Assembly: GCA_947034885.2 (NCBI GenBank)
Contig: OX344755.2
Coordinates: forward strand, 24,745,052 to 24,809,051
Length of the DNA: 64,000 nucleotides
Direction of reading: 5' to 3'
Source: Thuidium tamariscinum
Taxonomy: Eukaryota > Streptophyta > Bryopsida > Hypnales > Thuidiaceae
In this document: in pieces, positions 18,957 through 64,000 of the stretch
How positions within the stretch are numbered: the first letter of the stretch is position 1
How the letters are laid out: each line of letters opens with the position of its first letter
Made by a program: the position numbers and the translations under genes
The notes under the pieces: model-generated
Told to the model about the DNA's origin: nothing
Databases searched by the model: none
Seen by the model: only the letters and a program-made list of their open reading frames with translations

Positions 18957-19290
18957 GTTAGTGACAAAGGATTTCTTTTCCACAATATGAATATGTCACT
19001 AACCATACTAACCTTAGTTTTGGGGCTTAGTATGGTTAGTAACAAAGAATTTTTTTTTCACAATATGAATATGTCAATAACCATACTAACCTCAATTATC
19101 TAGCTTAGTGAGGTTAATGACCAAAAAAAATTTCCACAATATAAATATATCACTAACCATACTAACCTAAATTTTAGGGCTTCGTATGGTTAATGACAAA
19201 AGATTTCTTTTTCCCAATGTACCATGCATCAGTAATAGTACTAACCTTGATTTTTGAGATTAGTGCGGTTAGTCACAAAGGAAATTGAAT
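18890..19290. repeat. About 78-bp tandem repeat, 5 units, each a stem-loop
   Basis: Units anchored on the 'GTCACTAACC' block begin near 18,917, 18,995, 19,073, 19,149 and 19,228 (spacing 76-79). Each contains ACTAACCATACTAA and its inverted partner TTAGTATGGTTAGT around a short loop, a perfect 14-bp stem in the best units. The later units are more diverged. Confidence 0.85.
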
Positions 19291-40629: not shown

Positions 40630-41085
40630 CGGCGTCGTGTTAGACGTCCGATGTCGCGTGTCGTATAAGACAACCTGTCGCTACCCCGTCCCGTCCCGTC
40701 GCGCAAGGGTAAATTTTTTTACCGCGAAGTAAGAAGTTTTTGCCTACGTGGCAGGCTGTCCACGCTGACGTGGAAAGCGAGGCAGGGCGACTACGGGTGG
40801 GGCGACCGCGTCTCTGGTAAGGGCGACCGCGCATCCGATTTTCAGGGCGACAGCGGGTAGGCGACAACGGGTGCAGAGGCGACCGCGGGTACCGGGCTCA
40901 GGCGCGAACGCGGGTTAAAAATCCAACGCGACTGCGTCTCTTTTGCGACCGCGGGTGCAATGGAAGGGCAACTTCGGGTATAGGGCGACCTCGGGTACAA
41001 GAGAAGGGCGACTTCTGGTTAGGGGCGACCTCGGGTGCAGGGCGACCACGCCTCTGTCTTTGATGGCGACCGCGGGTGTTTTTTA
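40630..41085. repeat. GC-rich word array A (orphan)
   Basis: About 13 exact GCGAC cores in the pattern GGGCGAC-NN-CG followed by GGT, CAT, TCT or CCT, with variable spacing and all read on the plus strand. It stands out from AT-rich DNA on both sides. Unlike the other four arrays it has no ORF next to it; the nearest is the hAT transposase, whose stop codon lies 1.8 kb to the right. It may be the far flank of that transposon or a promoter module that lost its gene. Confidence 0.85.
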
Positions 41086-42891: not shown

Positions 42892-45800
42892 TTACAAACA
42901 AAAATCTGAATCGTTCTGCACTTCGTCAGCATCAGGGTCCGTATCTTCGCGCGATGCGTAACCAGCGTCTGTGTCGCTATCGTGGCTTGAGCTGTCATTC
43001 TCGTCCTCTTCTCTTGTTATTGGTTCTGGTCGTATTTCTCTTTCCACCTCCGAGGTCAAATTCCGCACAACTATGTCTTGACCACCAGGAATCGCAGTCT
43101 GGACTAGTCGTTTTGTGGGACGCGTTGCATCAATAATTCCATCAACTACAGATTCAGGACCTGCTTGAACCGCTATTGATTGGCTTGATTGCTGGACCGC
43201 TTGCGTGGAGCACCCTGCCCCAAGCCTACAAGGTTCCACAATTTGATTTGCGCGCTTTGGATGTCTGTGTGTCCTTTCATCTACTCTTCTAATGCGCCTT
43301 TTTTTACTTCTGTCTCTATTGTTGCTGTTGCGTAGTCGTTCTTCCAACGATATTTCTCTTGGCTCAGACACTGGAGTTGGTTGGGTGGCTTGTGGAGCGG
43401 ACTCGGGGACTTCTTCATTGATGCTGGATAGTGGACCTCCATCTAAAGGCGTCCTTGTCGATGAACTAGGGGCCGATCTTCTGACTCTACCTTGGCTTGT
43501 ATCTTCCCCTCTGGGCACACGGCCCCTTATAGAAGGAGTTGTGACTGACCTTCTGACTGTAGTCTGCCCTGTATGTCCACCTCGAGTCAAGGAAACGTTC
43601 CGACTACGGTTGAGGATGGTATTCAGTGGCGCATCTGAATCATACTCAGCTGCCTCCGTTGTTTGTATGGTCGGTGAATTCATTGCTACCGAAATAGGAG
43701 TTACTTCTTCTACAACCTCTTCAATGTGATCCACCTCTTCTTCTGCTTCAATTCCCGCATTGATTGGTGCAATGTTTCCAATATTCATTGCTCTGCTTGA
43801 AGGAATACGTGTTGGTACTGGAGATGTTGGTACTGGAGATGTTTCTTGAACATCTGAGGCAGGCATTTGATTATCTGCTTGTTCGTTGTTGTCAGAAGGT
43901 GTTCTTGCCGCAGTTCGTGGTGAAACTGTGCCCCAATTTCCGACCCACGCATCATCAGGGTTCCGCTCTGGAGAACGAAAAAGTTCTTCCTCAGCAACAC
44001 CTTCCGCATCATTGCCACTTGCAAATGTGTTTCCATATCGATATGGCGGTGGACTTGGTGGAGGTGGGACCATATCTGCCCATTCATTGTGATCGCGCAA
44101 GAGATCTTCTTCTTCTCTTCGGACTAAATTATCTTCGATAAAATCAAAATAACCCTCGTCCTCCGATCCTGAAGGCATAGGCTCGTCCCTCTCTTCATCA
44201 GTGTCTCCATCCACGAGGACCCTTTCATAAAATTGAGCAGCATTGTACCCACGCTTTTGACGTTCCAAGTGGCAGTTAGCATAAATGTACACCAAATCTT
44301 GAGCCTTCTTTGTGGTCAAACGATTTCGCGTTTTACTGTGCACGAATGAATACATGCTCCAGTTTCGTTCACATGAAGATGCTGAACAAGTCAACCCTAG
44401 AATTCTCTTTGCAATCTTCGGAAGAGCATCGCCGCCTACATGATTCCACCATTGATGAGGTTCTAAATTGGTCTCTGTGATGTCGAGAACCTCTTCTCGG
44501 GGATCAAATGGCCCTGTCTTCTCCTCAAATTGGACAAGCTCTTGCATTGCCACGACCACTGAAACTCCTAATGATGGAGCTAGTTTTCGTATGACTCGAT
44601 TCAAAGCTGCTTTGGCCGCCCCATCGTTTTGAATTTCTTCTACTCCTGCCAAAAACGGATTCAAGAGTGCTCCTGCATAGTGGAGGTCCGTTCGCATTAA
44701 CTTCCAACGAGCTTCAAATTTCTTCTCGTAACGCGTTGCAACCACAGGGTCTAAAAGAAATGGAGGATCCCTGAGAGCATACACGTGTTTCTTCAACTCG
44801 AACATTATCAACCAAGCTTTTGGCATTGCTGGTTTTTTGCCATCAAAGTGTCGTAGAGCAACGAGTACTGGCTCTATCATAAACACGAAATTCTTGCATT
44901 TTGACCAAAACCTTTCAGAATGAATGTTTAGCCGAACATCCATTGCTTTGCGCCTAATGGTACCTCCATTAGTCCGATTCTGCAAACTGAACTCGAAGGT
45001 CATGTAAGCGTCATCTGCAACCACGGTTTGCAAAGCTTGTTTGCAATCGAGCAGGCGGTCTACCATAAGGAAATTGGTGGCAAACCGTGTCAAAGTAGGC
45101 AGCCTAAGCATTTTGTTTGGAGAATGTTTCCGAAACAAAGCCATAGTGAAATGGTATTTCCTGATATGCTTCACCATTGTCCTACACTCGCTTACCAAAT
45201 CCTTCATCGTTTGAGACTTTCCCCAATCTTCCAAAAGCAAATCCAAAATGTGAGCCGCACACCCTTGTTTGTACATGTGGGGATATTTCAGTAACAAACA
45301 TGACATAGTTCCAATCATTACTGAAGCATTGTCTGTACACAATTGCACAATATTTGAAGGACCGGCCTTGTCTATGTACTTCGACATTAAAGCTGTCGTG
45401 TAGGCAATGTCCTTCTTCGCTCCCGTACTGTCCTCTGATCCCAAAAACACATCCCCTGCTGGACAAACGAGCATCACATTCATCAACGGCCGCCTATTGG
45501 TATCTGACCACCCATCTGAACAAATAGTTGCTCCATATTGCGCAATAGAGTTCTTTGTCCGGTCATTGACCATTTTTTGGACAACTTCTTTCTTCACATC
45601 AATCATCCTGGTACGCAACGCGTTGAATGCTGGTGGACGATATAAAATTCCAGCTGCTGCAGTTTCCTTCACTGCATTTATAAATGCAGGGTGTCGCGTG
45701 ATGTTGAATGCAATATTGGCTTCATAAAAAAATGAAGCCCACGTCGCATCCAACTTTTGTCTCAAGCCTATTTGTAATGCTTCATCCATACTTCTTTGAC

Positions 45801-46290
45801 GAGAAACCACAGGGCGGCTTCCTGTTCTGTCAACCGTACTTGGAGTAGAATCCACTGAATCTGGGGTAGGGTTTGTCGGGCCGGTTGGACCCGTTGGATT
45901 TGAAGAACCACCCACCTCACCACCCTCTACCTCTTGAATGAGGGATTGTGCCGCACCAATGGCCTCATTGCCCACAAATGGTGTTTCAAACAATTCTTCA
46001 AAGCTCATGGCTTTTGGAACGTTTCCGCCGCAAGTCATAAACTTTTCACGTGCACTTCTAGGGATTTTTGGACAACGTTCTGCTGTTGCCGAGCCACCAT
46101 ATCCAAAGTGACTAAATGCCCTTTTCCGCACAAAGACTTTGTTCCACCCGCAAAACAAGCATTTCCGAGGATAGGGTGAATGATCATTTGGAACGCATGG
46201 TATAAGCCAAGGGTCCCAATCTTTTGTAGCCCTACGCGTATCGGGCCGACCTTGACCACCACTTGGGACAACCATGGTGTGAATCCACAA
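42892..46290 (-). CDS. hAT-superfamily transposase with long C-terminal extension
   Basis: Intronless, uninterrupted ORF of 1132 residues; an alternative start lies 15 bases inside. It cuts and joins transposon ends in the nucleus. Residues ~26-82 look like a degenerate BED-type zinc finger (CLFCGW ... H ... C). The RNase H-like core begins with CSDGWSD (D259) and CTDNAS (D320), the DUF659-type pattern. SSCERNWS (E641) and NRLTTKKAQDLVYIYAN (~656) form the hATC dimerisation part, so the expected D-D-E triad is present. Unusually, ~430 residues of acidic, Ser/Pro-rich, probably disordered sequence follow, with a basic KKRRIRR patch near the end. Array B lies directly upstream and array A downstream. 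I could not define the transposon's TIRs or target duplication. Confidence 0.9.
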   Translation of the reverse strand: MWIHTMVVPSGGQGRPDTRRATKDWDPWLIPCVPNDHSPYPRKCLFCGWNKVFVRKRAFSHFGYGGSATAERCPKIPRSAREKFMTCGGNVPKAMSFEELFETPFVGNEAIGAAQSLIQEVEGGEVGGSSNPTGPTGPTNPTPDSVDSTPSTVDRTGSRPVVSRQRSMDEALQIGLRQKLDATWASFFYEANIAFNITRHPAFINAVKETAAAGILYRPPAFNALRTRMIDVKKEVVQKMVNDRTKNSIAQYGATICSDGWSDTNRRPLMNVMLVCPAGDVFLGSEDSTGAKKDIAYTTALMSKYIDKAGPSNIVQLCTDNASVMIGTMSCLLLKYPHMYKQGCAAHILDLLLEDWGKSQTMKDLVSECRTMVKHIRKYHFTMALFRKHSPNKMLRLPTLTRFATNFLMVDRLLDCKQALQTVVADDAYMTFEFSLQNRTNGGTIRRKAMDVRLNIHSERFWSKCKNFVFMIEPVLVALRHFDGKKPAMPKAWLIMFELKKHVYALRDPPFLLDPVVATRYEKKFEARWKLMRTDLHYAGALLNPFLAGVEEIQNDGAAKAALNRVIRKLAPSLGVSVVVAMQELVQFEEKTGPFDPREEVLDITETNLEPHQWWNHVGGDALPKIAKRILGLTCSASSCERNWSMYSFVHSKTRNRLTTKKAQDLVYIYANCHLERQKRGYNAAQFYERVLVDGDTDEERDEPMPSGSEDEGYFDFIEDNLVRREEEDLLRDHNEWADMVPPPPSPPPYRYGNTFASGNDAEGVAEEELFRSPERNPDDAWVGNWGTVSPRTAARTPSDNNEQADNQMPASDVQETSPVPTSPVPTRIPSSRAMNIGNIAPINAGIEAEEEVDHIEEVVEEVTPISVAMNSPTIQTTEAAEYDSDAPLNTILNRSRNVSLTRGGHTGQTTVRRSVTTPSIRGRVPRGEDTSQGRVRRSAPSSSTRTPLDGGPLSSINEEVPESAPQATQPTPVSEPREISLEERLRNSNNRDRSKKRRIRRVDERTHRHPKRANQIVEPCRLGAGCSTQAVQQSSQSIAVQAGPESVVDGIIDATRPTKRLVQTAIPGGQDIVVRNLTSEVEREIRPEPITREEDENDSSSHDSDTDAGYASREDTDPDADEVQNDSDFCL

Positions 46291-46501
46291 TGAGTTTCAC
46301 CCCCAAAAAATCGATCCAAGAATCCAGTAACGAGGAAAAAGTTATGACAATGCTACCTACTGTGAGAGGGTTTTTAAACCCCCTCAAAGCAAGGCTCTTG
46401 CCCTCCAATGAACCAAAACATCCGTAAGAAGCCTCTTTCGAAGGTTCAAGGCTAGAGTCTAATCACTGAAGCAAGGTAATCCCTCAGTGTTTCAGCTGCA
46501 G

Positions 46502-46509
46502 CTTTATAC
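46502..46509 (-). promoter_or_regulatory. Candidate TATA box for the hAT ORF
   Basis: The minus strand reads GAGTATAAAGC about 210 bp upstream of the ATG, at the edge of GC-rich array B where promoters of this module are expected. Confidence 0.45.
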
Positions 46510-46514: not shown

Positions 46515-47070
46515 CGCCACAGGGGCGACTGCGGGTACAGGGCGACTTCGGGTGAACAGGGCGACTTCGGGTGAACAGGGCAACCGCGGGTGCAGGGCGA
46601 CCGCGGGTAATGGGGGCGACGGCGCCTGCAAGGACGACCGCACGTACGAGGGCGATCGCGCGTGGAAGGGCGACCGCGGGACAGGGTGAGGAACTGCAAA
46701 AAATGAGCCGCGATCGCCCCAAGCGCGGTCGCACTCCCCGGACGGGCGACCACGCATGGAGGTGGCGGTTTAGGTTCTGGCACCGGAGGTCGCCCCTGAC
46801 CCACGGTCGCCCCAAGCGCGGTCGCACTCCCCGGTCGGGCGACCGCGCATGGACGGGCGACCGCGCTTGGAGGTGTCGGGCGGCAGTTTTGGCACCCGAG
46901 GTCGCCCCTAACCCGCGGTCGCCCCAAGCGCAGTCGCACTCCCCGGACGGGTGACCGCGCATGGAGGTGGTGGGCGGCAGTTCTGGCACCCGAGGTCGCC
47001 CCTGACCCGCGGTCGCACCTTTGCAGGTTTTCAATTTTTGGAAAGCGCGGTTGCTGTACACGCGGTCGCC
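46515..47070. repeat. GC-rich word array B (upstream of hAT ORF)
   Basis: About 20 exact GCGAC or GTCGC cores. The plus-strand orientation (GGGCGACCGCGGGT) dominates at 46,520-46,690 and the reverse orientation at 46,700-47,070. The right half contains three longer direct units, each with CGCGGTCGCCCC then AAGCGCGGTCGCACTCCCCG. Open frames through it are Arg/Pro-rich by-products. Confidence 0.88.
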
Positions 47071-48150: not shown

Positions 48151-49229
48151 AAGACAAAATTGAAAAAATATGGCACTTATCCAAGAATGTGGAAATAGAA
48201 GGACATTTACAAATAAAATATTAGAAATTTAAGTTACCTTTTTAGCTCTAACATGGACCTTAATGACATTGATCTAAGCAATTAGATAGTATCCTAAAGA
48301 GGATATCTTAGCCTCCAAAATTTATGTGGATTTAGTTGCAATAATGGATTATGTTGAATGCATCTTAAGGACAAGTATTTATTGTAAAGATGCTTGCATT
48401 GACCAAATGATAACAATGTTGTGTACAATTTGAGAAGAACTTTACTCCAAGTCAAATGAGTAGGAGGTTTCCATAAAAATGAATCCAATCTCATGTCATA
48501 GTATTTTGTGTTTAATCCTTATTTGAAGCCTTTGTGTAGGCTTCTCATGATTTAAGGGTTTAGGTAAATGGTTTTTTTTTTGCTATATAACTTCCATTCT
48601 AAAGTTGTAATTGAAATATCAATTATATTTCTAGATAAATAACATTCCAAAGTAGAGGGAGAATGGAAGTTTAGGGATAATTAAGGATTTCGGTTTTATT
48701 GAATATAATACTCCAAGAACATATAATTTAAGATCTAAAAAATGTTCAACAAAAGATCTTTAGGAATAATTAAGGGTGAAGCAAATTTCAATATGGTAAT
48801 ACTAAATTATCTTTAGACTCCAAATAAATTTTTCTAAGGGGTTAAAAAATCTATATTCATCTTTTTATAAATTTGTTTCTCCCAAAACTACGTTTGTGGC
48901 CCATGATGTTGATCATCAAGAATTGCTATAATGTAAAGATCTAACCATTGAAATGTTCTACAATTAATTCCATACATGCTAGATATAATAATTTTTACTT
49001 TTGTACAGTTAAAATTTTAAAAAATGATAACACCTATGTGCCCAAAAATATGGAAGGATAGAATTGATTGAAATCCTCCATTGTCAAAACTGTTTTAGTC
49101 TTGTAGGGATTAAAGGAATGCAATATTACTATTGCATAAAAAATTTGTAGTTAATAGACACTTGAGCAGAATGCTACTTCAATGTTGCAAAATTAAAAAT
49201 TAAAAATCGAAGTTATACATATATCTTTT
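48151..49229. other. AT-rich spacer
   Basis: No gene recognised. Confidence 0.4.
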
Positions 49230-50660
49230 AGTAAATGGCAAACACCATTGTATTAGAAATGAACATTTAGACCAAAAACATTTGAGCCAGAAGGGGTGAA
49301 CAATAAAAATAAGTTATACTATAGTGAAACTAATACAAATATTTGAATGCAATTCAATGGACACACTCCAAAAATGAATTTTAAGCCTTTAGGTGATTTG
49401 AATCAGGTGGTTTTGACAATTGCTATTTTTAATTCAAGTAATAGATTTTAGGAAAAAATATGAATTTAGGCACATATAATTGTAAGATCCTATATTACAC
49501 TAGTTTGAGAAGATGTGGAGGAAAGTTAACCAATTTTCTACTATGAAAATTGCCAAGATATTAACATTTGAATTGATTGTAATTCTTTTGAGGGCCTTGT
49601 GATGTATGAAAACCTAGGAAGTTGCACTTCATACAATCACATTTGTATAAAATAATTGTCGTAATGGTGTTTCTTTTCTATACCAAATTACCAATGTTCA
49701 AAGGCAATTCATAAGATGCTTGAAATTTTTTTTAGGCAAACTACAAGTGTATAACATTTTTGGAAAATATATGTCAGTACATAGGAATATAGAATGATTT
49801 CAAATAGTAAGTTGTTAAGAGTTGAATTATATAGAATTGAAAATGCCAATTCCAATGGTAATTATTATCCTGCATCTAATATTTCAATTTTTGTTATAGA
49901 TTTCGAATATTGAATTAAATGAAGAACTTTACAGAATTTATTGTGCATTTGTTGATTAGAAAACTAGGAAATCCCTAACAACCCTTAATCAAAATACCTC
50001 TTAACGATCATGACAGATGCTACTATATGAGTCTAAAAATGTGAATCCCCAAGACTATTCACCTATAGTATAGGTGTTTAAATCATAGAAACTTTTTATA
50101 ATTAGAGATTTCTAGTTTGATTATACTATACACACTTATATTATTGGTGCATATGTTATAAACACATTGAAATATTCAATAGTTGTGGGATACCTACTTA
50201 TATCTATAATCAAGGCTTACATACTTGCATTTCTATCTTCTCATGCTAGCATTTTAGTAACAAAATCAAATTAAGAAATTCACATTTTAAATTTATTTTG
50301 AAAATTTGTAGAGCACTTATTTCAAAGCCCAAAACTTATTGGGGTTATGCGTCTCCAATGTATGCATCTCCAATGTTTGTATCTCATTTTTTCGGTGACC
50401 AAATTTTTTAAATTGAACATATGAAAAGAGGATTGTAAGACTGTGCATGTGTTTTGTAAATTTAACACACTCGTGAAGTCGTGATCAAACATTATAATCT
50501 GTCATCCATAAGTGATAATATTCTATTTTCTTTACCTTCATAACCTCTAATATGCACAGTTTAAATTTGTATGCTTATAATTTAAAGAAAATTGATGAAG
50601 CATATGAAATATTATCCTATTTCTAAAAACTAAAAAGGAATATGAAAGTTGCATGTACAA
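49230..50660 (+). repeat. Left arm of the 6.7-kb long-TIR element
   Basis: Diverged inverted copy of 54,770-55,920. Matching anchors are TGAGCCAGAAG-like, GAGGGCCTTGTGATG-like, ATTGAATTAAATGAAGAACT (shared exactly), CTACTATATGAG and CATAAGTGATAATATT. About 280 bp near 50,205-50,490 is absent from the other arm and is probably a later insertion. Confidence 0.75.
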
Positions 50661-51007: not shown

Positions 51008-52405
51008 CTACTTGCTTTGTTCATCTGTCTTTAGCCTTTTCTTAGCTTCCAAGTCTTTCTTCGCCTCCTTGTAGGCACTATCCAAATTGGATTGAAGAGG
51101 AAAATCCCACCATTTATTTTTCATGTACTCTTTCTTCAAATTCAGTGCATTGAGCAAATTCATCTTCTTCTTCTCCACTTCCCCGGCCACATCACTTTCC
51201 AATGCGAGAGCATGGGCTAACTTCTTCTTTAGGTCCTCTGCTTCCAACTTCAATGTCTCATGTTGCCTCTCATGATCTTCAGAATCTTGTATATCAACAA
51301 TACGATCAAGAGGGGCTTTGTCCTTCATTTTCTGAAGGTCACGTAATTTTGATTGTGCACCTTCAAGAGATCTTTTTTCATTTTCCAAGCAGTCAGCTTC
51401 GATGTGACAATCTTCCTTGAGTTTAGCCAATCGTTCTTCTACAAATTTGTTAGTTGAAGAACTAGAACCTTCACCCCCTGAAACGGAGAAGTTCAGATAG
51501 AATGCTTCCAAGTTCAAGATTTGCTCATGTTGCTTGGACAACTGAATTCGTCCCGATTCAATGAGGGCTTGAAGGGTTGGAACATCATCAGAAGTATCAG
51601 TCACTGCCCCTTCCTCCAAAGTCCTTTTCTCTTCATTTGCTCTATCCAACTCTTCAAGCACACTCTTCAATTGAACTTTATAAAAGTCGTTCAATGGAAT
51701 ATCTTCGTTGGCCTCCACACTTGCAGCTTCAATAGATCCTTCAATTCTTGGCATCCCTTCCAATGAAGGCAATGTCAACGTGGGGCCCGCCTCCACTTCC
51801 CCCTCCTCCAAAGGCTCCAAATTAGCCAATGTCTCACCCACATGTGGCAGTCCAACATCCATCAACTCATCTTCACTACTTTCGTGATCCGACCACACGA
51901 ACTCATTGTTCGGAACTTCATTCTTGATGAAAATCTTTTTCCCTAAACCTTCACGTGGGTTTTGGGAGGGACCCGCCCTAGGAATGTCCTTGGTTGACGG
52001 TTTTTGGACAAGCTTTGCTCCCTTAATGGTGCTCCAATCCACCCTTCGTCGAAGAATAACTTCCGCGTACACCATCTCACACAGAAACAAGGGAATTTCA
52101 TTCCGAGGCACACTTCGTGTCTTGTACAAGTATCGATATACTTCGATACATCTTTGTACAAATCCATCGTGAGTGCAAGCATGAAGATTTGCCATATTTG
52201 ACTTCAAGTGGATTTTGTGTCGATGATAGGGGAAAAGCTTATCGATGTGGCACCATTGTACAAATGCCCTACAAGTGGTCGCGGTCCAAAAGCCTTCGAT
52301 CCTCTCCCAACCTCCATGAGCCACGACATTAGAGTCCACAAGGACGTGTCGTTGTCTTTTTTGCATCTTGCCTTTGGCTTTACGGTTCCTCCGGGTGGCG
52401 TCCAT
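51008..52405 (-). CDS. Intronless coiled-coil protein with novel N-terminal CHIxKLFP domain
   Basis: 465 residues from the ATG at 52,405. The frame stays open 26 codons further upstream, but MDATRRNRKAKGK gives a basic N-terminus like that of the paralogue at 63.5 kb. Residues ~33-124 form a domain shared with that paralogue: W(C)HIDKLFP, RHKIHL, ANL-x2-C, RC-x-EV, LY, MVYAE and VDW, with several conserved Cys and His. An acidic linker follows (~165-245). Residues ~245-300 and 320-460 are charged heptad-rich coiled coil. No family is recognised. A DNA-binding or assembly role is only a guess from the basic start and coiled coil. It lies inside the 49.2-55.9-kb inverted-repeat element, with array C and the shared promoter core directly upstream. 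Confidence 0.75.
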   Translation of the reverse strand: MDATRRNRKAKGKMQKRQRHVLVDSNVVAHGGWERIEGFWTATTCRAFVQWCHIDKLFPYHRHKIHLKSNMANLHACTHDGFVQRCIEVYRYLYKTRSVPRNEIPLFLCEMVYAEVILRRRVDWSTIKGAKLVQKPSTKDIPRAGPSQNPREGLGKKIFIKNEVPNNEFVWSDHESSEDELMDVGLPHVGETLANLEPLEEGEVEAGPTLTLPSLEGMPRIEGSIEAASVEANEDIPLNDFYKVQLKSVLEELDRANEEKRTLEEGAVTDTSDDVPTLQALIESGRIQLSKQHEQILNLEAFYLNFSVSGGEGSSSSTNKFVEERLAKLKEDCHIEADCLENEKRSLEGAQSKLRDLQKMKDKAPLDRIVDIQDSEDHERQHETLKLEAEDLKKKLAHALALESDVAGEVEKKKMNLLNALNLKKEYMKNKWWDFPLQSNLDSAYKEAKKDLEAKKRLKTDEQSK

Positions 52406-52508
52406 TGGATTGAAGTAGATGGAGGTATTAAAAAATACCAAAATGCGACAATAGTTGCCCCAATAGATGCACGAACCACACAATCACAGTAAAAAAAAAC
52501 CAAGTACT

Positions 52509-52541
52509 GGACACGCAGTCAGCCACGAGAAGCGGGTGACA
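52509..52541 (-). promoter_or_regulatory. Shared promoter-like core (copy 1)
   Basis: The minus strand reads GTCACCCGCTT, four bases, then GTGGCTGACTGCGTGTCC, about 105 bp before the ATG of the 465-aa ORF. The same block, with the same spacing, stands upstream of the kinase-like ORF (56.79 kb) and of the 63.5-kb ORF (63.21 kb). Confidence 0.65.
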
Positions 52542-52577
52542 GAGCAGTGTGCAGCGCTGGAATTGCAAGTGGGCGAA

Positions 52578-52855
52578 TGCGGATGGGGCGACCACTTATA
52601 AACCCGATGTCGCCTGGGGCGCGTGCGTTCCGTGCGAGGGCGACTGCGGGTGGGGCGAGTGCGGGAAGGGCAACCGCACGAGGGCGACCGCGGGTCCTTT
52701 GAAGGACCTGTTTTGCGGTCTGGGCGACCGCGCCTGGGCGAGTGCGCGAAGGGCGACCGCGGGTCCTTCACAGCAGTGGCGACCGCGGGTCCTTTTACGA
52801 GGTCATTTATTTTTGAATTTCCCGCCTTCTGACTTGGGCGACCACAGGTTGTTCA
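52578..52855. repeat. GC-rich word array C
   Basis: Eight exact GCGAC/GTCGC cores plus near variants, with GGGCGACCGCGGGTCC recurring four times on the plus strand. It sits directly upstream of the shared core and the 465-aa ORF, which is on the minus strand. Confidence 0.85.
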
Positions 52856-52859
52856 TCAA

Positions 52860-53704
52860 GGAAATCTGAATTTTGGATTTCGCCCTCTGAAAAATAGTTG
52901 TAGAAATGAAAAGGAAGCCGATGTGAACTAAAAAAAGGATTCATGGGAAGAAATGGTGTGTAAAAGAACAAGGAAATGCCCATTTTTTCAAAAAATAAAA
53001 GTTTATAAAAATAAAAAGGGAAATCATATTAACTAAAGAATGCTCATTTGGAGAAAATTCCATGAGAAAATAAATATAAAAATAACACAATCAATGAAAG
53101 GCTTGAAAGAAAAATGCATTGTAGGAATGAAAAGAAAAATCTCAGTATCAATAAAAAAAAATCATGAATTCAACTACAATAGTGCAGTAATGACCTGAAG
53201 TATGTCAAAGCTAAATGCTCAATAATGTAATTGAATGCCTATATAAGTTAAAATGCAATGGTATACATTTCCACCAATATTTGGTGTGTAATTTTTGAGC
53301 ATAGGAAGCTGAGATTCATTTTATATAGATTAATAATGATGTCCAAAGTTGTACACCATCTAATTTGGTGGGAAAAATATCTAACTAAAGAAATTGTTGC
53401 AAAAGTATTCTATATAAAAATAACTACCAAGTGGACTACTAAGTATTATTCAACCTTCTTTTTTGGATCCATATTGCTTACATAAAAAAATATAGAAGCA
53501 TGTCTATTCTTTATTGTTTTTTTATTTAAGTTGAAGGTGACATTTGAGAGCCATTGTAAATACAAAATCACATCATTTCTTTGTTTTCCTTACGACCCCC
53601 AATCAACATCCAAGAGCATAATAAAACATGAATTTCTTTTTTGGGTTTTAGAATATGATGATTATGGTGTGAAAGACCCTGAATCCAAAAGCACATTAGC
53701 CTTG
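52860..53704. other. AT-rich spacer inside the long-TIR element
   Basis: No gene recognised. Confidence 0.4.
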
Positions 53705-53709
53705 TTTTT

Positions 53710-54150
53710 GTGGGAGGTTTCTATTGGGAACCTCATTTAATTCTACGACATATTTTTTTATTTTTTTAGAAAGTTTCCCATCATAACTTCATTAAATTCA
53801 AAAGAGCATTTTCTTTTAAGAGGTTCACATCAGAAATCTCATTTAATTATAAAACTAATATCTTAATTATTTAGTAAGGGTTTTCATTAGGAACCTTATT
53901 TAATTCAAAAACATATTTATCTTGAACCCCTTTTTTTAAAGGGTTCCCACTAAGAACTTCATTGCACTCAAAAACACATTTTTTTGGATGTGGTTCCCAT
54001 TGGAAACCTCATTTATTTCAAAAACACAATTCCCTCTTTTTTTGGCGTGGTTTACATTGCAAACCTCATTTCATAAAAAAAAACAATTTCCCTCTTTTTC
54101 AAAAGAGGTTTGCATTGGGAACCTCATTCAATCCAATAATTTGTTTTATT
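53710..54150. repeat. Minisatellite, ~57-bp units, 7 copies
   Basis: The block GGTTTCYATTGGGAACCTCA, or variants of it, recurs near 53,716, 53,820, 53,877, 53,940, 53,991, 54,048 and 54,105, followed by TTTAATTCAAAAACACA-like sequence. Spacing is 51-63 bp apart from one longer gap. Confidence 0.8.
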
Positions 54151-54769
54151 TTATAAAAAATTTGGTTCTTGTTGTGCATAAACTCATATGCATTAAATTC
54201 TGTGATGCCTTATTTGGAATACTCATTCAAAAGATGTTAAGTGATATAACCTCACCTTTGGAATTCTCGGAAAAAAATTAAATTTTTAAGCTATTAGTAG
54301 TTGAGGTTAGGGGTCAACTTTAAATCAACCTCTACTTAAATAACTATTTAGAGAGAACAAAACATTATTTTCTTTAGGGTGAAATCGTAGATCAAATATT
54401 GAAAGATTCCTTAGTTATTGGTCACAGGATTGATGATATCATCATTTGGAACATGAAGGGGGGGGATTTTAGTGCTCAATTTCCTTTTCTATCTAGCCTT
54501 TCGGCCCTTTTCAAGCTTGGCCGCTTTGTATATTGGATTCATCTTAATGCAATAGTTCTTCCATTTTTTCAAATACATATTTAATTTTATTTTTTTCAAA
54601 TTCATTTCAAAAATAAAGTATTACAAAATCTAAATTCAAAGTGGAAAAATTTTAGGATCTAAATATTCTAAAACGTAGGTATTGTATATGGTATTATTGT
54701 CCAACAATATGTTATAATCTTATTAAAATATCAAGGATTATTTTGAGTTTTCTTCTATTCTAATCCTTG

Positions 54770-55920
54770 CCTTTATCCTTTACAAATTAATATCAATCCT
54801 CTTTAGTTTTTTGAGATAGGACAAGTTCTTATACACTTTAACAATTCCTTAAAATTATAAGCGTACAAGTTCTAACTAGGTAAATGCAGAGATTATCAAG
54901 GTAAAGAAAATATAATATTATCACTTATGGAATTATGGATCAAGAGAGTATAAATAGGTATGCCACAACTATAGAATATTTCAACGTGTTTATAACATAT
55001 ACCCTATAATATAAGTGTGTATAACATAAGTGTACTAGAAATCTCTTTTCTATGATCCAAACACGTATATTATAAGTGAATCGTCTTCTAGTCTTAGGGA
55101 CTCACATTCTTAGGCTCATATAGTAGCATCCGTCACGAGTTTTAAGAGGGATTTGGGATGCAATAGATCTCCCATTTGTTCAAAAAATAAAAAATAAAAA
55201 ATTGTACAATGGTTTGTAAAGTTCTTCATTTAATTCAATATTCAAAATTTATTACAATAATTAAAATATAATGTGTAGGATAATTCTTTGAAATTTGAAC
55301 CATTGAAATTAGCATTTTCAATTCTAGAATTGAACTACTAACAACTTAGTCTTTGAAATCATTCAATATTCCTATCTACTTGCTATGTTTTCCCAAAATG
55401 TTATACACTTCCAAATGGTTAAAAAGTTCTCAAGTATATTATCAATTGCCTCTAAACATTGGTATAAATAAGCACCACCATTTACGGCAATTGTTTTATA
55501 TAAATGTGATTGTATGAAGGGCAACTTCCAGATTTTCTTACATGTCACGGCCCTCAAAAGAATTTCAACCAATTCAAATGTTAATAGCAAGGTAATTCTC
55601 ATGGTAGAAAAATTTGAAATTTCCTCCACCACTTTTCAAACTAGCATAATATAGGATACTACAACTATATGTGCCTCAATTCATTTTTTTCCTCAAAATC
55701 TACTACTTGTATTCAAAAGAGCAATTATGGATAAAACAAAATTCAAATCACTTAGAGGTTTAAAATTCATAGTTGGAGAATGTTCATTGAATTGCATTCA
55801 AAGATTTGCATTAGTTTGGCAAAGGTATAACCTCTTCTAATTCTTCACTCCATTTGGCTCAAATGCTTTGTTCTATTAAATGTTAGATTTTAGTACAATG
55901 AGATTTTCCATTTACTAAAA
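54770..55920 (-). repeat. Right arm of the 6.7-kb long-TIR element
   Basis: Inverted, diverged partner of 49,230-50,660. It ends about 60 bp before GC-rich array D begins. Confidence 0.75.
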
Positions 55921-55977
55921 AACTAGGATACAATACATTAAACTATTCCCTAATGACAAATTTTTAGTTGTCATGTA

Positions 55978-56737
55978 AAGCGACCGCCTTTAGAGCGACC
56001 ACACTTCACAATTTATTTATTTATTTTGAACCAAAGGGGCAAGCCCTCTGCATGAAGAAGCTTAACAAAATTTGCAAACCCTGAAAGTAAGGCGACCGTG
56101 GGTAAGGGGCGACCGCGCCTCAAGGGCGATCGCCAGTGCCACAAGTTGCGTCAGAACACACTACCATTCCAGGCTCGATCGCCCCTTAAGAGAATATTCT
56201 ATTTACTAAATAGGTTTCATCCAGTGTCCCGCAATGCTCTATCAGCAGGGTTGAAGTTCGAGTTTCAACGAGATATTTCTCGATTTTATCCATCTTCAGA
56301 AGTTTTTTGTTGTAGACATCATAAACTCGATTGAAAACATGATGAGCACTTTTCACTTGCAGCTCCGACGACACGGGATTATCTCGACACTTGGCAGTGC
56401 ACAGCACAATTGCCTTCCCGAGCAAAACTTCCACCACATTCTCATTCTCAACTCCCTTGATACTGCCTTGCGATATAAACACCTCCTTCCCGGCCTTGCG
56501 TGGAGGAAGCTCTTTCTTCAGAGTAAGGGAGCTCCTCAACCGCAGTCGCCCCCCATCCGCGGTCGCCCCCCATCCGCGGTCGCCCCCCATCCGCTGTCGC
56601 CCCCCAGCCGCGGTCACCCCCAGCCGCGGTCGCCCCCAGTCGCGGTCGCCCTACCCGCGGTCGCCCTACGCACCCGAGGTCGCCTACCCGCGGTCGCGTC
56701 TGGATCCGCACGCGCCTGGGGCGACTTCGGGTACTTA
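55978..56737. repeat. GC-rich word array D
   Basis: About 14 exact GCGAC/GTCGC cores. The left part (55,978-56,180) has scattered plus-strand words. The right part (56,535-56,700) is a compact run of ~17-bp tandem units, CCATCCGCGGTCGCCCC, decaying to shorter ones. The AT-richer DNA between them (56,185-56,530) reads only as short ORFs on both strands. Confidence 0.87.
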
Positions 56738-56836
56738 AGCAGTCTCCGGGACCGCATTCGCCATCTTGCCTCGGCCTTGCGCATTGTCTTTCACCCGCCT
56801 TGGAGTGGCTGAATGCATGCCCGTAGGCCGAGGTCC
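56709..56836 (+). promoter_or_regulatory. Shared promoter-like block (copy 2), kinase-like ORF
   Basis: CACGCGCC, GCGACTTCGGG, TACTTAAGCAGTC, TTGCGCATTG, CACCCGCCTT and GTGGCTGAATGCATGCCCGT appear in this order, ending about 85 bp before the ATG at 56,920. The whole order is repeated at 63,138-63,262. TACTTAAG is placed where a TATA element could be. Confidence 0.75.
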
Positions 56837-56919
56837 TTTATTCGATTTTGGGGGGATTTTTTTGTCATTTTGATCTATAAAATTCCTCAAAGCTACGGTG
56901 AAGCTTTTGATTACACGCA

Positions 56920-58575
56920 ATGTCCAACCCAATAGAAGATGGCGACGTGAGGCACAAAGGTGTTTTGGATACTCATCCAATATTCTCAGAAATGCCTAAT
57001 CCCACAGAGGGTACCAGTACCTTGAGGCGAAAATCCCTTTGGGATTTGGATGATCCACAACACTTTCTAGAGCCTATATTTACAAGCGAAACAACAGGGA
57101 ATGAAGCTCGATTGAAGAAAAAGAAGTCCAGGTCTGCTCATGATAAGGATCCAACATATCCTCCTTCAAGTTATACGAAGTATGCATACGAGGTGTGCCT
57201 TCAATGGTACGCTGGCAAAAGTGTACAATTTTTGGAGGCAAACTATTTGAGGGATGCTGGAACAGGCACGGAGAAGCTGACGGGGGATTTGGAGGCCCGA
57301 ATCTTAAGCAAGTGTTATGAATCAGAGGACTTCAAAGACGTGGACTTAACGTACAATTCCAGATTTTGTGATTGGATGACTGATACTATTCAGGCAGTAA
57401 CTTTTAATACCAAGAAATTGATGATAGAGTTCCGTGCACCAACCACAGGACGAGTGGAAGATGAAGAGGCAAAGGAATTCCGTGCGAAGATGGAGTGGTG
57501 GCATACTGCGTCCAAGAGATTGTCAAAGTTTGGATCGAGGGGTTTCAAGTGGAAAAATGACGCTGTGAAGGCTGCATTTGCAAGAGATAGTGGAGTGAGT
57601 ATCATATGGATTCCACCCACGGCAAAGGTTGAGGCCCTCGGTGGTTTTTCTCGTGAAGGTGGCCACAGAAAGGTGCGAAAGGTTCGAATAACAGGTCTAG
57701 ATACCATTCCACCAAATATTGCTCTTGCGGGGAAAATGCCAAAAACGAAGGACTTGCGTGATCAACGGGTGGAGCGGTCCGTAGAGGCCTTGGCATGCCC
57801 TTTAAATCATGCAGGCTTAATTAAGTTTTTTGCCTTAAACTCAATTACCATGGAAGCGTATACATTGTGGTGGAATGGAGGTCATTTGGGTGACTTACTG
57901 AATGTGGATAAGCTGGTGTCACGAACTACTGAATGGCACGAAGTGCATCGAATCAGAGAACTTCCTGAAGAGAAACAAAAGGAAGTTAGCCTTTTTCGAA
58001 GGCATAAGGCAAAGTTGGCATGGACCTTGGTGTATGTGACTCACCTCATGCACCAATCATCAGTGCTACACAACGATTTATCTCCGAGAAATGTATTGTT
58101 GCACTATCCTGATTATTCAAATGAAATAATCAACATTGGGATTTGTGATTTCGGAATTACAAGCCGTGTAAACGAAAAAGCCCCATCGCATTATGAATAT
58201 CCTACCAAGGAAGAGACACGGAAGCAACAAGAGGGACGATGGTGGGTGGCTCCAGAGTTGTTTTATACATTTGGACCACCTAATTCGGATACAAGCATAC
58301 CAATTATGCAATCGAGGCATAAATATACAAAGCAGTCAGACTCGTATTCTATTGGAAAGCTGGTGGAAGCTATGAAGATTGGGGATATGTATCCTTTTGA
58401 CAAAGAGACATTCACAACGATGGATGCATGTAGGTATTTTGCTATGAAGGTGGGCCAACTCAAAAATGAAGATCTGAAGGAGAGACCAACATGTACAGAG
58501 GTGGTGAATTTGGTCCTGGGGCCTCCATGGTATATGAAGCCTCCAACATTTGTATTGCGCGATTCCCCCCTGTAG
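56920..58575 (+). CDS. Intronless protein-kinase-like protein
   Basis: 551 residues, no interruption. The C-terminal half has a kinase fold: VLHNDLSPRNVLL (~382-394) is the catalytic loop with D386 and N391 but Asn in place of the usual Arg; ICDFG (D410) is the metal motif; WWVAPE (~441-446) is the end of the activation segment; QSDSYSIGKL (~472) is the helix-F Asp. An alpha-C-like stretch (VERSVEALACPLNHAGLIKFF) lies at ~284-304. I see no clear Gly-rich loop or VAIK lysine. Residues 1-250 (with YEVCLQWYAGKSVQFLEANY) match nothing I know. With a catalytic Asp, Asn and DFG it could be active; the lost loop Arg suggests no activation-loop phosphorylation control. Its upstream region is the shared GC-array and core module. 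Probable role unknown. Confidence 0.82.
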   Translation: MSNPIEDGDVRHKGVLDTHPIFSEMPNPTEGTSTLRRKSLWDLDDPQHFLEPIFTSETTGNEARLKKKKSRSAHDKDPTYPPSSYTKYAYEVCLQWYAGKSVQFLEANYLRDAGTGTEKLTGDLEARILSKCYESEDFKDVDLTYNSRFCDWMTDTIQAVTFNTKKLMIEFRAPTTGRVEDEEAKEFRAKMEWWHTASKRLSKFGSRGFKWKNDAVKAAFARDSGVSIIWIPPTAKVEALGGFSREGGHRKVRKVRITGLDTIPPNIALAGKMPKTKDLRDQRVERSVEALACPLNHAGLIKFFALNSITMEAYTLWWNGGHLGDLLNVDKLVSRTTEWHEVHRIRELPEEKQKEVSLFRRHKAKLAWTLVYVTHLMHQSSVLHNDLSPRNVLLHYPDYSNEIINIGICDFGITSRVNEKAPSHYEYPTKEETRKQQEGRWWVAPELFYTFGPPNSDTSIPIMQSRHKYTKQSDSYSIGKLVEAMKIGDMYPFDKETFTTMDACRYFAMKVGQLKNEDLKERPTCTEVVNLVLGPPWYMKPPTFVLRDSPL

Positions 58576-58870
58576 TGATGAATGCATTAGTTGAAGGCAA
58601 ATTGTTGAGCTATTAGAAGAAATTGTTGGCAACAATGTGAGCCTATCATTTTGTATTACTATACACGAATATATAAATTTTTCTTTGGCAAAACAAAGTG
58701 TACATACCATTGCCTTCCATGCATTGTATTTTAAAAGTTAAAATATAATTTATCTTGGAGTCAAATTTGTCTTCACTGTGAGTTGAAATGTCATATGACA
58801 TGTTTGTATCAAGTCCATAAGATCACCTTTTTGGGGAGTATGGGGAAATAATATATTACGCAGGCTTTAT
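58576..58870 (+). other. 3' flank of the kinase-like ORF
   Basis: AT-rich, probably 3' UTR; it abuts the foldback element B2. Confidence 0.45.
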
Positions 58871-59961
58871 GGGTGATTGCATGAAACACTTGTACTGCTG
58901 TGTTGCATCATGTTTTGTGGTGACTAGTTTTTTAGCCATAACTTATGTTTTTTAGCTCCAAATGATTCAAATTTTTAAAAATGGGTACTCATAACTATTA
59001 TACATCATTTAGAATTTTTGAAGATTTAAAAAAAATATTTTACTATTTTTAAATAGCCCCCAATTTTTTGTCACATATTCCAATTTAGGGGTTTTTAGTA
59101 CTATTTAGAACCCCAAAAAAAGAATTTTGAGCTGAAATTTTGAGAGAATGTTTTTTTAGTAGAATTATAGCTTACCTCCAAAGGAATTATAAAAATAGTC
59201 ATTTTTTGGATGTATAGAAGTCCACAAAGAGACCTTCTTTCTACTTGCTTTTTGAAACATATTAAACATTTTTTTGGTGATTTTCTTGGTCAAGCCTTAT
59301 CACCAAAAAATCTTCTCAAATGGCCAATTTTTATTTTTATTTTCAAAAATGTTTTTTATTTTTTATTAATTAGAACATTGAAGTATGTATTTTCTTCACC
59401 GGAATTCTATGTGTTGTATGTCCAAAATCCTAGTGAAGAAAAATACAACTTCAACATTTTAATTTGTAAAAAATAGAAAAAACAAATTTAATGAAATCTA
59501 AAAATTGGCCATTTGAGAAGACTTTTTGGTGATAAGGCTTGACCAAGAAAATCACCAAAAAAATGTTTAATATGTTTCAAAAAGCAAGTAGAAAGAAGGT
59601 CTCTTTGTGGACTTCTATACATCCAAAAAATGACTATTTTTATAATTCCTTTGGAGATAAGCTACAAGTCTACTAATAGAATATCCACTCAAATATTCAA
59701 CTCAAAATTCGGTTTTCTGGGTTCTAAATAGTACTAAAAACCCCACAATGTCAAAGTGTGACAAATTAACAAAATTGAATTTTAAATATCAAATGTTTTT
59801 TTTTAATTTGTAAGAAATAAGAATAATAATTTGAGTCAAGATATCGAGGAAGTGTTTTTTTATTTTGGACACTTAGTTTTTTATTCAAAAGTTAGAGCCA
59901 TCTTAAAGCGGTCAACCCAAAAAAACGCAACAAATAGTACAAGTGTTTCCTGCATTCACCC
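58871..59961. mobile_element. Foldback element B2 (1.09 kb)
   Basis: A near-complete palindrome: paired coordinates sum to 118,832 and the centre is at 59,416. The ends are GGGTGATTGCATGAAACAC and the inverse of GGGTGAATGCAGGAAACAC. The arms around 59,210-59,330 and 59,500-59,620 match almost base for base (e.g. GAAGTCCACAAAGAGACCTTC). It belongs to the same family as 24,561-25,207 but is longer. No ORF. Confidence 0.88.
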
Positions 59962-61326
59962 TTAATATGCTCACAAATTTCATGCTCATGCCTCATGGAG
60001 TCATGGCTCTTAGCTCACAAGCTCTTTGTTGCAAGCTCTCATACTAGTGTCGTTGAAAGTGAACGTGTTCAAATTACTTGTTAAATTGTGTTAAAGGATT
60101 TTCATTATTTTGTCATTTTTTATTTTTATATTTTTTAAAAATATTTTGTCATATTTTTAAATAGTCACTTGATTGCTTGAAGTCAATGACATTGACATGT
60201 TTGTTGGCCCTTTAGTGTGCAATTTTTTTTCCCAATAATAGACAATATTGAGTAAAATTACAATTCCCAAAATGTTATAGGTTTTTTTTGTCCATAGTAC
60301 TCTATAGTATAAGGGATTTTTTTCCTCTAGTCATTTACATCCTTAAAGATTTAAAATAGACTTAAGAGATATGGGACTTCAAGCAACAAAGGACCCAAAC
60401 ATTTGAGACTTCATTCACTTCAAGAGTTCAAGTTGGTAGTAATTAAATAAAATATGATGAGCCTTTATCCGTATAGTGAAACTAAAAAGTCCTTGATAAT
60501 TGTATCCTCCATTTCTTTGCTCCTCAATCCTTACGTGCAAAGATTTTTAGGTGATTTTTTAGATTAGAGATGAATTAGAGATGAATTGACATGATTGACT
60601 AGTGCATGTATTCAGAATTTGAATTTTCTATTAAAAATTTCCGATCATTATGAAATATGAATTTATGAAGAAAGCTTAAAAGAAACTAATATTCAATACT
60701 TAATCCTTGAAGGGCAAAGGGGGACATAATGTACTTACTCGAAATTTTCAATGACAAATTCCCGATAGGGCAAAACTAATTTAAGTCTTCATTCTTAATA
60801 CACAAAGAAAACTTTAATTTTATTTTCAAATTTTATTTATTATAAATCTGAAAAATATTACCCTAAACCTAGAGTTCTAGAATTATAGTGTGAATGTATG
60901 ATAGAAAATACCAAATAATTAGAATGATTCCAATTTTCTGGGAAGATGTTTCTATTTATGGAATGATAATAAAAGATTTATAAAATTTGAAAATTTACAC
61001 ATATATAGTTTTTATAAAAATGTTAAGATCCAATTTGGCCAATTTCCCTATTTTTTACAAATTGAAAAATAAAAGTGCCTATTTCCATGAGCCATTTGTA
61101 TTTTTCTAGTTCACCACTTCACCTACTTAGAAACCTTTTCTACACTTTTCCTTCATCGGATATCTTCTTCTAGAAGAAATATACATTCCCTATATTTTTT
61201 ATATTTTTTAAAAATTGTTTTTGTATTTTGAAAGTACTCCCGGAAAATCAAGAGTACTATGGCCAAAGTGTACCAAAACCGGTCAACCCTCCTATGAAGA
61301 TAGGCTGTTTGTTTGTTTGGATGTTT
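59962..61326. other. AT-rich spacer
   Basis: No gene. 59,995-60,060 carries a fragment resembling the right end of the candidate element at 37,251-38,090. Confidence 0.4.
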
Positions 61327-61620
61327 GTTACGTTGAGATCTCCCGGACCGTGAGTCCCCCGGGTGCGTGTTTGGTACCATTGGAAAGCCCTCGGCGAGGA
61401 GGGGTGCACGGGCTTTGATTCATGGTGTTCTGACCTACGGCATGAAAGTTATTGAATTTTGAAGTTTCTATATGTTACGTTGAGATCTCCCGGACCGTGA
61501 GTCCCTCGGGTGCCTGTTTGGTACCGTCGGAAAGCCCTCGGCGAGGAGGGGTGCACGGGCTTTGATTCACGGTGTTCCAACCTACGAAATGAAAGTTATT
61601 GAATTTTGAAGTTTTTATAC
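61327..61620. repeat. GC-richer 147-bp tandem duplication
   Basis: GTTACGTTGAGATCTCCCGG starts both copies (61,327 and 61,474). The copies share AAAGCCCTCGGCGAGGAGG, GTGCACGGGCTTTGATTCA and ATGAAAGTTATTGAATTTTG, and differ at only a few bases. A short GC-rich piece (GGCAACGGCACGGGCCACCC) follows at ~61,656. Confidence 0.88.
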
Positions 61621-61828
61621 ATTTATAAAAATATTTTTTTCTTTTCTTTTAGACCGTGGCAACGGCACGGGCCACCCTAGTCTTTCTTGAACTTACGATA
61701 AATGGTCTACAACATAAAATTCTTTGAAAGATCTAACATGTTGAATACTTGAATTAGAATTTGAACAATTTTAATTAAAAGAAAGTTGTCGAACTTGTCA
61801 AAATGTAGACAATTTTTTCAATTTACAA

Positions 61829-62835
61829 CAAATTCCAAGAAGCTCAAAATAGGCCTTGGCGCCTTGTCATTAAGGAGTTAATGGCTTTACATGTGGAGAA
61901 GTTTCTTGTGCCATTCCATGTTTGATAGTTTTGCTATAGATCTTGAATAAAGTACAAGATTTCAATTTAGAAATTTTGAATGGAAACGAAATTTAATTCC
62001 AAATATTCGGTTTTGTTACCTTTTATGAATAGCTAATTGGTTAAGTTTGAATGTCAAAATGAAGTTATAAATTTGTAATGGGAGAAACCAAGAAAATATT
62101 GAAAGGCACTATATTTTTTTATTTTCTTTAATGATTTTAGATTGGCTTACTGACATATTGGATATTTGGATGAGGAAATGGAGTTTGTCATCATGCTTTA
62201 CAATAATTTGTTTATTACATTTTGGAAGAATGGATGTGAATTCATTTATTCATGGTATATTTAACTTCTTTATCTTATATACTATTATAGATTGAATTCC
62301 TTTATTTTGTTTTGTTTGCAATATTTTCAAAGAAGGAAGAAAATGATAGATAGTACTGAACTATGTTGTTTAGAAATCATTTAAACCATAGGGATGGTCA
62401 ATTATGTTATTCCATCAACACTTTTTTGCCATTTTGGCATGTACAATAATTTTCTACCTTTGCCTATTTACAATTTATTTCCCTTATCATATATAATTTG
62501 AATAGTTTTAAAACCTTTTAATACAGTATCAAATTTGTTTTTTTCGTAAATATAGAAGAAGACTACTATTTTTTAACTACTTGCAAAACCATTTCTAGAT
62601 ACATGAGAGGTTCCTCAGAAATAAATTATTGAAAATAGATATCTTTTTTTTGGTGAACTATTATCTTCAAAGATTATAGAAAGTTACAACACAAAGGATT
62701 TTTCGATTTCAACCATACAAAATTCTTACAAATTTGGGACTTCACGACTTTAGGGGATGCTAACTTCGTAGAAGTCACTGAACTAATCATTAACCAGTAA
62801 ATGGCCAGGGCCTATTTTGAGCTCCTTCGAATTTG
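61829..62835. repeat. Inverted-repeat pair about 1 kb apart
   Basis: Left AAGCTCAAAATAGGCC ... GTTAATGG and right CATTAACC ... GGCCTATTTTGAGCT pair imperfectly over about 50 bp. The sequence between has no ORF. It could be the ends of a decayed TIR element. Confidence 0.45.
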
Positions 62836-63021
62836 CTTTCATTAAAACGGAATGTAAACATTTTCATAAGTTTTTATTATTTCACTCTTGATTAGAAATG
62901 ACAAACATTATCATCAAAGGTTGCATAGGAAAAAAAATATATCACTTATAGAGTGAAAGACTATAATATTTGATAATGAAGGTGTTAAAACAACAAAAGA
63001 ACTAGAAGCCCCAAACCCGAA

Positions 63022-63185
63022 GGCGCGGTCGCCCATCCCGCAAACGCGCACCCGTGGTCGCGCACCCGCGGTCGCACCCCACGAACGCGCACCTTCCTGG
63101 ACTCGCGGTCACCTTGAATGCGCAGTCGCCCTTGCGCACGCGCCCTAGGCGACTGCGGGTACTTAAGCAGTCGCCCCGACCCGTA
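63022..63185. repeat. GC-rich word array E
   Basis: Six exact GCGAC/GTCGC cores and close variants, mostly in the CGCGGTCGCCC orientation, directly before the shared promoter-like block and the ORF at 63,502. Confidence 0.83.
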
Positions 63186-63262
63186 GTCCACCTCCCTTGC
63201 TTTGCGCATTGACCTTCACCCACTTAGATGTGGCTGATTGCGTGCCCGTGAGCAAGGGATTC
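63138..63262 (+). promoter_or_regulatory. Shared promoter-like block (copy 3)
   Basis: CACGCGCC, GCGACTGCGGG, TACTTAAGCAGTC, TTTGCGCATTG, CACCCACTT and GTGGCTGATTGCGTGCCCGT lie in the same order and at nearly the same spacing as at 56,709-56,836. The ATG lies about 240 bp further on, after a T-rich stretch that might contain a leader intron. Confidence 0.72.
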
Positions 63263-63501
63263 CATACTTCACGTCGGGATTTGCCATTTTTGCGCTCGAG
63301 CTCTGCACATGCTTGGCATACTGTTATGTATGAGTATGTGCCTTTTTTTTTATAAATTTTTTTTTTTGTAAATGCATATAGGTTTGTAAATGTGTAGTTT
63401 GCTTGTTCTAGGGATTTAGGTTTTTAGAAAAGAACATTTTAGTCGTAGAACAATTAGTTAAGTTAACCATAGAGTAGCATAGTACTCAGGTAGCAATAGT
63501 T

Positions 63502-64000
63502 ATGGAGGATGAGACTGGAGCAGCCCAGCCTAGTACAGGCAAACCATTGACTTCACCACAGAAGAGGGCAGCTCGAGACAAGGACCGTAAAAGGAAGGGG
63601 AAATGTCACAAGAAGCGAGTGCCTCTCCTTCAATATCTAAAAATCAAGGCTTTTTTGGGTTGGAGGACTGAACCTGAGCCTTGGACTTACAAAACAGTCA
63701 ACAAATATGTTGATTGGTGCCACATCAACAAGTTGTTTCCACATTGGCGCCACAAGATTCATTTGGGGCAAAACAAGGCCAATCTTGCATATTGCAAAGA
63801 TGAAGACTTCACACTCAGATGCTTGGAAGTATGGATGAGGTTGTATGGGGAGACCCAGCCATATAGAAACGACAATTTCTGTTTCTTCCTGGTCCAAATG
63901 GTGTATGCTGAAAACATATTGAAGAAAAAAGTGGACTAGTCAACATTGAAGGAGCTTCTAGTTGGAGACCATGTGGAAGAAGCATCTATTGTGGCAGAAG
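63502..64000 (+). pseudogene. Paralogue of the 465-aa coiled-coil protein, stop in frame, runs off window
   Basis: From ATG 63,502 the frame gives 145 residues: a basic start (KDRKRKGKCHKKR) and then the same domain as at 51.0-52.4 kb (WCHINKLFP, RHKIHL, ANL-x2-C, RC-x-EV, LY, MVYAE, VD). In the paralogue VD is followed by WSTIKG; here the Trp codon is TAG, and the frame continues open (STLKELL ...) to the window end. It could be a fresh nonsense mutation, a sequencing error or a short form; the rest of the gene lies outside. Upstream are array E and the shared promoter-like block. Confidence 0.7.

Follow-up and report, generated by a model that had tools for sequence, protein, structure and literature searches.

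The L1Tc/ingi retrotransposons of trypanosomatids are described as carrying Pr77, a 77-nucleotide (nt) 5'-end sequence that is common to different elements and acts as both promoter and structured RNA (PMC4035085, PMC4748587, PMC8190864). Pack-TYPE elements are reported as DNA transposons of plants that pick up coding sequence and reshuffle it (PMC8903248), and plant retrozymes as non-autonomous elements that join a promoter with a conserved RNA fold (PMC9695139, PMC4918200). Here we analyzed a 64,000-nt stretch of the moss Thuidium tamariscinum (contig OX344755.2, 24,745,052 to 24,809,051; hereafter the window, with positions counted from its first letter), in which an upstream block occurs in three copies: copy A before a kinase open reading frame (ORF), and copies B and C before two paralogous frames of another kind, CHI-B and CHI-C. 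We give about an even chance to the reading that the block is a conserved 5' module, comprising array, TATA-like box, start site and RNA hairpin, which is used by unrelated multi-copy intronless genes that are probably transposon-borne. No description of this unit was found among the literature matches listed.

Homology of the blocks and their RNA hairpin

The three blocks are homologous beyond chance. In a self-comparison of the window, 56,707-56,824 and 63,135-63,249 were 77.1% identical over 118 columns (expectation value, E, 2e-15), and 52,509-52,692(-) and 56,641-56,822 were 70.2% identical over 191 columns with the array included (E 2.5e-8). When the comparison with dinucleotide shuffles was limited to the 125 nt that start with the TATA-like box, the lenient score was reached in 0/1000 for A-B, A-C and B-C alike, and the strict score in 0/1000 for A-B and A-C and 3/1000 for B-C. 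An nhmmer profile of the three blocks matched only these three places in the window, the next match having an E of 1.3. These results bear out the common upstream block of the original prediction, though its copy at 52,509-52,541 (-), given as three short motifs, exists as a copy of the whole unit. A search for the block pattern in viral contigs (IMG/VR) returned seven matches, judged to be chance by a rough estimate.

The copies align in sequence from ~26 bp upstream to ~93 bp downstream of the TATA-like box, and identity is near shuffle level past about +105 from the box and past -100. Within the aligned part, the CHI-B block is nearer to the kinase block (73/99 identical) than to the block of its coding paralogue CHI-C (61/97), while A and C share 63/100. 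The closer A-B similarity could also mean faster change in C, and three unrooted copies cannot prove exchange.

The original prediction had treated the block as a promoter only; as modeled here, the larger share of its conserved length is taken up by an RNA hairpin. The hairpin follows the same plan in all three copies. Counted from the first base of the TATA-like box, it starts 36 nt downstream in A, 33 nt in B and 42 nt in C, and the predicted fold z is -3.3, -3.7 and -2.2, respectively, for 86-88-nt pieces. A and B align over 67 nt without insertions or deletions, and 24/26 of the A pairs are kept in B, five by changes on both sides and three with compatible one-sided changes, while two are broken. 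When the same 15 stem substitutions were placed at random, 6/200,000 trials kept as many pairs. Among ~127,900 67-nt windows on both strands, A (26) and B (24) are the only ones to form more than 21 pairs in this exact structure. With filters off, a covariance model made only from A and B recovered C at E 2.5e-10; next in rank came A on its reverse strand (E 0.19) and then unrelated places from E 0.51. Across the three copies, compensatory changes on both sides affect 8/25 pairs and 93.3% of cells are paired, a value reached by 0/500 shuffles, and sliding the partners by 1-3 columns in this alignment lowers pairing to 27-45%. Two C-C mismatches are each present in 3/3 copies. Between copies, the inner part is 73-79% identical, and the basal stem, at only 36-61% identity, remains paired. 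Such joint change of paired bases suggests that the shape has been preserved by evolution. A splice donor at the shared CCC/GT was considered and disfavored, as this is where similarity declines, in a 3' basal arm whose sequence varies while its pairing is kept.

All three hairpins lie in the orientation of the frame that follows, ending 85 nt (kinase), 242 nt (CHI-B) and 94 nt (CHI-C) before the ATG. The rough chance that all three end at most 250 nt before a same-strand ATG is 5e-7, the 250-nt limit and the choice of four ORFs having been made after the data were seen.

Conserved inner arms, a variable loop and a variable but paired basal stem are typical of plant microRNA precursors, and the conserved arms and paired basal stem by which plant MIRNA genes are judged were found here. 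The block could thus be a MIRNA-like gene, in which a promoter and a short hairpin precursor yield a small RNA and the position before ORFs is secondary. However, 3/3 copies stand close before a same-strand ORF, no Rfam microRNA was found at gathering level (a sub-threshold mir-2830 match, E 2.1, overlaps copy C on the opposite strand), and no site complementary to the hairpin arms with <6/21 mismatches occurs elsewhere in the window, so we regard this explanation as rather improbable. No Rfam family of any kind fits the hairpin, either at gathering level in the window or in weak searches of the three blocks.

Several points weigh against a selected RNA hairpin in a transposon-borne module. 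First, the covariation rests on three sequences from one locus, and the structure guided the alignment of the three copies. Second, when the substituted positions were fixed and only the letters were random, as many A-B pairs were kept in 1,574/200,000 trials, and with A and B alone 26/500 shuffles equaled the covariation measures. Third, the 9:1 ratio of G-U to A-C cells in the sense strand, which points to RNA and not a DNA palindrome, is partly built in, as energy folding allows G-U but not A-C. Fourth, folding energy by itself is ordinary in this repeat-rich stretch: among 6,392 windows, the best GC-corrected rank is 50 for A, 125 for B and 635 for C. Fifth, a hAT transposase gene in the window has the array and the TATA position but no hairpin, and ribosomes scanning from the cap would be impeded by a strong hairpin close to it. 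Lastly, hAT-like and MULE-like scans for terminal inverted repeats (TIRs) with target duplications gave chance-like results, mostly AT-rich pairs only.

Arrays, TATA-like boxes and the frames downstream

Directly upstream of the TATA-like box, A, B and C share the order CGCACGCGCC, a short gap and GGCGACNNCGGG. GGCGAC sites with a TATA-like box within 8 bp are 5/55 in the window; four of them lie upstream of kinase, CHI-B, CHI-C and hAT, and the remaining one is copy C read on the opposite strand. Only hAT was matched by a stricter dyad pattern. The original prediction had placed a GC-rich word array before each block, which holds, but arrays of this kind are not confined to the three blocks: one precedes the hAT ORF and another stands by itself at 40.8 kb, with all five arrays within 40-64 kb. 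The ratio of observed to expected CpG (o/e) is 0.21 in the CHI-B coding part, a depletion like that of non-coding stretches of the window (0.20-0.45), but 1.35 in the CHI-B array. This contrast would be explained either if the promoter is unmethylated and protected or if it is younger. The putative promoter role of the unit is read from the TATA-like boxes and their spacing. An open frame of 154 codons at 56,189-56,650 (-) reads away from the kinase array and has no Pfam match up to E 1.

The kinase ORF matches Pfam Pkinase (E 3.9e-12) and has the motifs ALAGK at 268, HNDLSPRN at 384, DFG at 410 and APE at 444. Its structure prediction gave no usable model (predicted local distance difference test, pLDDT, 34), and its pattern had no match in IMG/VR. 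For the CHI proteins, the only Pfam match was KxDL (E 0.22, below cut-off) and NCBIfam gave none. The CHI domain model was weak (pLDDT 56), and Foldseek with this model gave 0 at E<=0.001 among the 37 matches listed; a PDB profile search gave one match (E 0.046) with no stretch passing alone, and none of 20 CHI-C pattern matches in IMG/VR was a relative. CHI-B and CHI-C share 45% amino-acid identity. Of the three intronless ORFs that had been predicted behind the blocks, the frame at 63 kb is interrupted by a TAG at 63,937-63,939, where CHI-C has Trp.

Kinase and CHI have no detectable homology, with no similarity between kinase and CHI-C in blastp (best E 2.6) and a probability of 0.4% for kinase against a CHI-C/CHI-B profile in hhalign. 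This agrees with the original prediction that the two are unrelated, and, together with the closeness of the CHI-B block to that of the kinase, with its view that the upstream unit is common independently of the coding part. Since the module serves at least two unrelated proteins, coding parts and module would have been joined by recombination at some point.

Table 1. Positions of the block copies, their parts and the associated ORFs in the window
Feature	Positions	Strand	Remark
Block copy A	56,704-56,840	+	upstream of kinase ORF, gene orientation
Block copy B	63,132-63,271	+	upstream of CHI-B, gene orientation
Block copy C	52,629-52,494	-	upstream of CHI-C, gene orientation
GC-word array, copy A	56,540-56,703	+	upstream of kinase; 17-bp tandem repeat 56,540-56,666; words; CpG o/e 1.20
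GC-word array, copy B	63,010-63,131	+	repeat and word scans
GC-word array, copy C	52,629-52,800	-	word scan
GC-word array with adjoining GGCGACAGAG-TATAAA	46,520-47,070	-	upstream of hAT ORF; without hairpin of block family
TATA-like box TACTTAAG, copy A	56,732-56,739	+	after GGCGACTTCGGG
TATA-like box TACTTAAG, copy B	63,160-63,167	+	after GGCGACTGCGGG
TATA-like box TTTATAAG, copy C	52,595-52,602	-	after GGCGACATCGGG
Hairpin, copy A	56,768-56,834	+	67 nt; folding and covariance model
Hairpin, copy B	63,193-63,259	+	67 nt; folding and covariance model
Hairpin, copy C	52,500-52,560	-	61-nt core; folding and covariance model
Kinase ORF	56,920-58,575	+	intronless, 551 amino acids (aa); catalytic motifs present
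CHI-C ORF	51,008-52,405	-	intronless, 465 aa; no recognised family
CHI-B frame	63,502-63,939	+	ends at premature TAG relative to CHI-C
hAT transposase ORF	42,892-46,275	-	intact, 1127 aa

Constraint, element ends and setting

Over 125 codons, nucleotide identity of the CHI pair is 0.584, 0.584 and 0.376 by codon position; 9/19 comparable fourfold sites agree, and NG86 yields no estimate of synonymous divergence (dS). The pair is near saturation at third codon positions. The B-C block identity of 61/97, compared with 0.376 at third positions, fits selection on the block or a later homogenization of it. Since the CHI pair is near saturation while the blocks can still be aligned, and CHI-B carries a premature stop, the block has probably been kept by selection and not recently spread. 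An old module under selection fits better than a recent exchange of cargo. For the mobile promoter or element family with exchanged cargo that the original prediction had proposed, there are only three known copies and no convincing terminal repeats.

The unit could also be an ordinary promoter of old host multigene families, with core promoter and leader inherited or copied between genes and no mobile element involved. The TATA-like box and conserved spacing agree with this, as do CHI coding parts that diverged under constraint. Since one CHI copy is broken, the neighborhood is rich in repeats and the covarying hairpin is not explained by a promoter alone, we give this explanation only a small chance.

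The hAT ORF, which lies 6-17 kb from the blocks, is the only one with hAT domains (DUF659, E 3.4e-32; Dimer_Tnp_hAT, E 2.1e-7). The same GC-word array is found on both sides of it (40,780-41,090 and 46,520-47,070), possibly as its subterminal repeats. Its leader at 46,360-46,508 (-) has a stable fold (z -3.7) of different structure, which the A+B model does not match. Array, TATA and leader might belong to the interior of elements of a single DNA-transposon family, possibly driven by hAT, with kinase and CHI as cargo moved by a hAT transposase that binds the array words. The intact hAT ORF with its two arrays and same TATA position, the confinement of all five arrays to one part of the window and an inverted repeat around CHI-C speak for this. 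Against it, the kinase has arrays on one side only, save a single word at 56.1 kb, the hAT gene has no hairpin, and the scans found no ends or target duplications, making hAT-borne cargo unlikely, if by no means negligible.

The scans covered 8-9-bp duplications and 11-14-bp TIRs around kinase, CHI-C and hAT; CHI-B, cut by the window end, was left out. No hAT-type short TIRs with 8-bp duplications around kinase or CHI-C were convincing at <=3 TIR mismatches and <=1 duplication mismatch. The inverted repeat at 49,226-50,639 / 54,797-55,920 (77-79%) encloses the CHI-C gene together with its array, and diverged pieces occur near 41,187-42,550; at 77% identity it is without a clear target duplication. 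Blocks A and B were also considered as long terminal repeats (LTRs) of one element, since they have the same orientation and enclose the kinase at a distance of 6.4 kb, but they do not look like such a pair, having no more in common than the array words and the ~120-bp block. Five strings resembling LTR primer-binding sites do not occur in the window. Retroposition of an mRNA is disfavored, as the expected transcript would start downstream of both array and TATA.

If the conserved 5' module is real, the CpG-rich tandem array and the TATA-like box would start transcription probably ~31-33 nt downstream, at a CA present in 3/3 copies. The transcript would begin a few nt before the 61-67-nt hairpin, whose shape selection would keep, and within the mRNA the hairpin could act in cis, by gating translation, by affecting stability or by binding a factor common to the family.

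The window looks like plant nuclear DNA, judging from its gene families. It contains a TOR-type FRB exon (8,890-9,354), a PI3/PI4-kinase end (11,510-12,046), a GRDP-type C2 domain (30,534-31,184, strand -) and the intact hAT ORF. Its ATG ORFs of at least 200 aa are three, hAT, CHI-C and kinase; CHI-B is a fourth frame of 145 codons from ATG to stop. An inverted repeat at 14,418-15,693 / 17,682-18,957 (1,276 bp, 99.9% identity) is perhaps a recent inverted duplication or the LTRs of a ~4.5-kb element. Other repeats are a palindromic repeat at 58,867-59,965, which resembles a miniature inverted-repeat transposable element, has TTA at either side by eye and is related to 24,560-25,208, and a tandem repeat at 61,326-61,619 (unit 147 bp, two copies, 93% identical).

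Comparison with known systems

The constant parts of Pack-TYPE elements are the element ends, whereas the constant part here is promoter and leader, and the scan found no ends. Retrozymes carry hammerhead ribozymes in their LTRs; the Rfam searches gave no hammerhead match here. The likeness to hAT elements lies in the array and TATA position of the local hAT gene, and the difference in that gene's missing hairpin and in hAT ends, none of which can be assigned to the kinase or CHI units. Pr77 folds like a ribozyme of the hepatitis delta virus (HDV) type and heads retrotransposons, whereas the present unit is predicted to form one extended hairpin with no HDV-type or other ribozyme match in Rfam, follows an upstream TATA and array, and precedes a kinase and an unrecognised family in place of retrotransposon proteins.

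By analogy, the block works like the Pr77 hallmark without being a member: promoter-like sequence and RNA structure form one 5' unit common to different genes. If other copies confirm this, plant genes would have a 5'-terminal structured RNA that stays conserved while the protein behind it changes. This would offer a direct way into the question of how transposon-borne genes retain or exchange their control regions, and it would add a new RNA family that the covariance model could look for in any host assembly. It is tentatively conceivable, though we would not expect it, that array, TATA and hairpin represent a new class of plant promoter-coupled structured RNA, a hallmark that is the unit of selection in an element family and recombines with unrelated genes (kinase, CHI, perhaps with the hAT system), much like Pr77 but with a new RNA fold.

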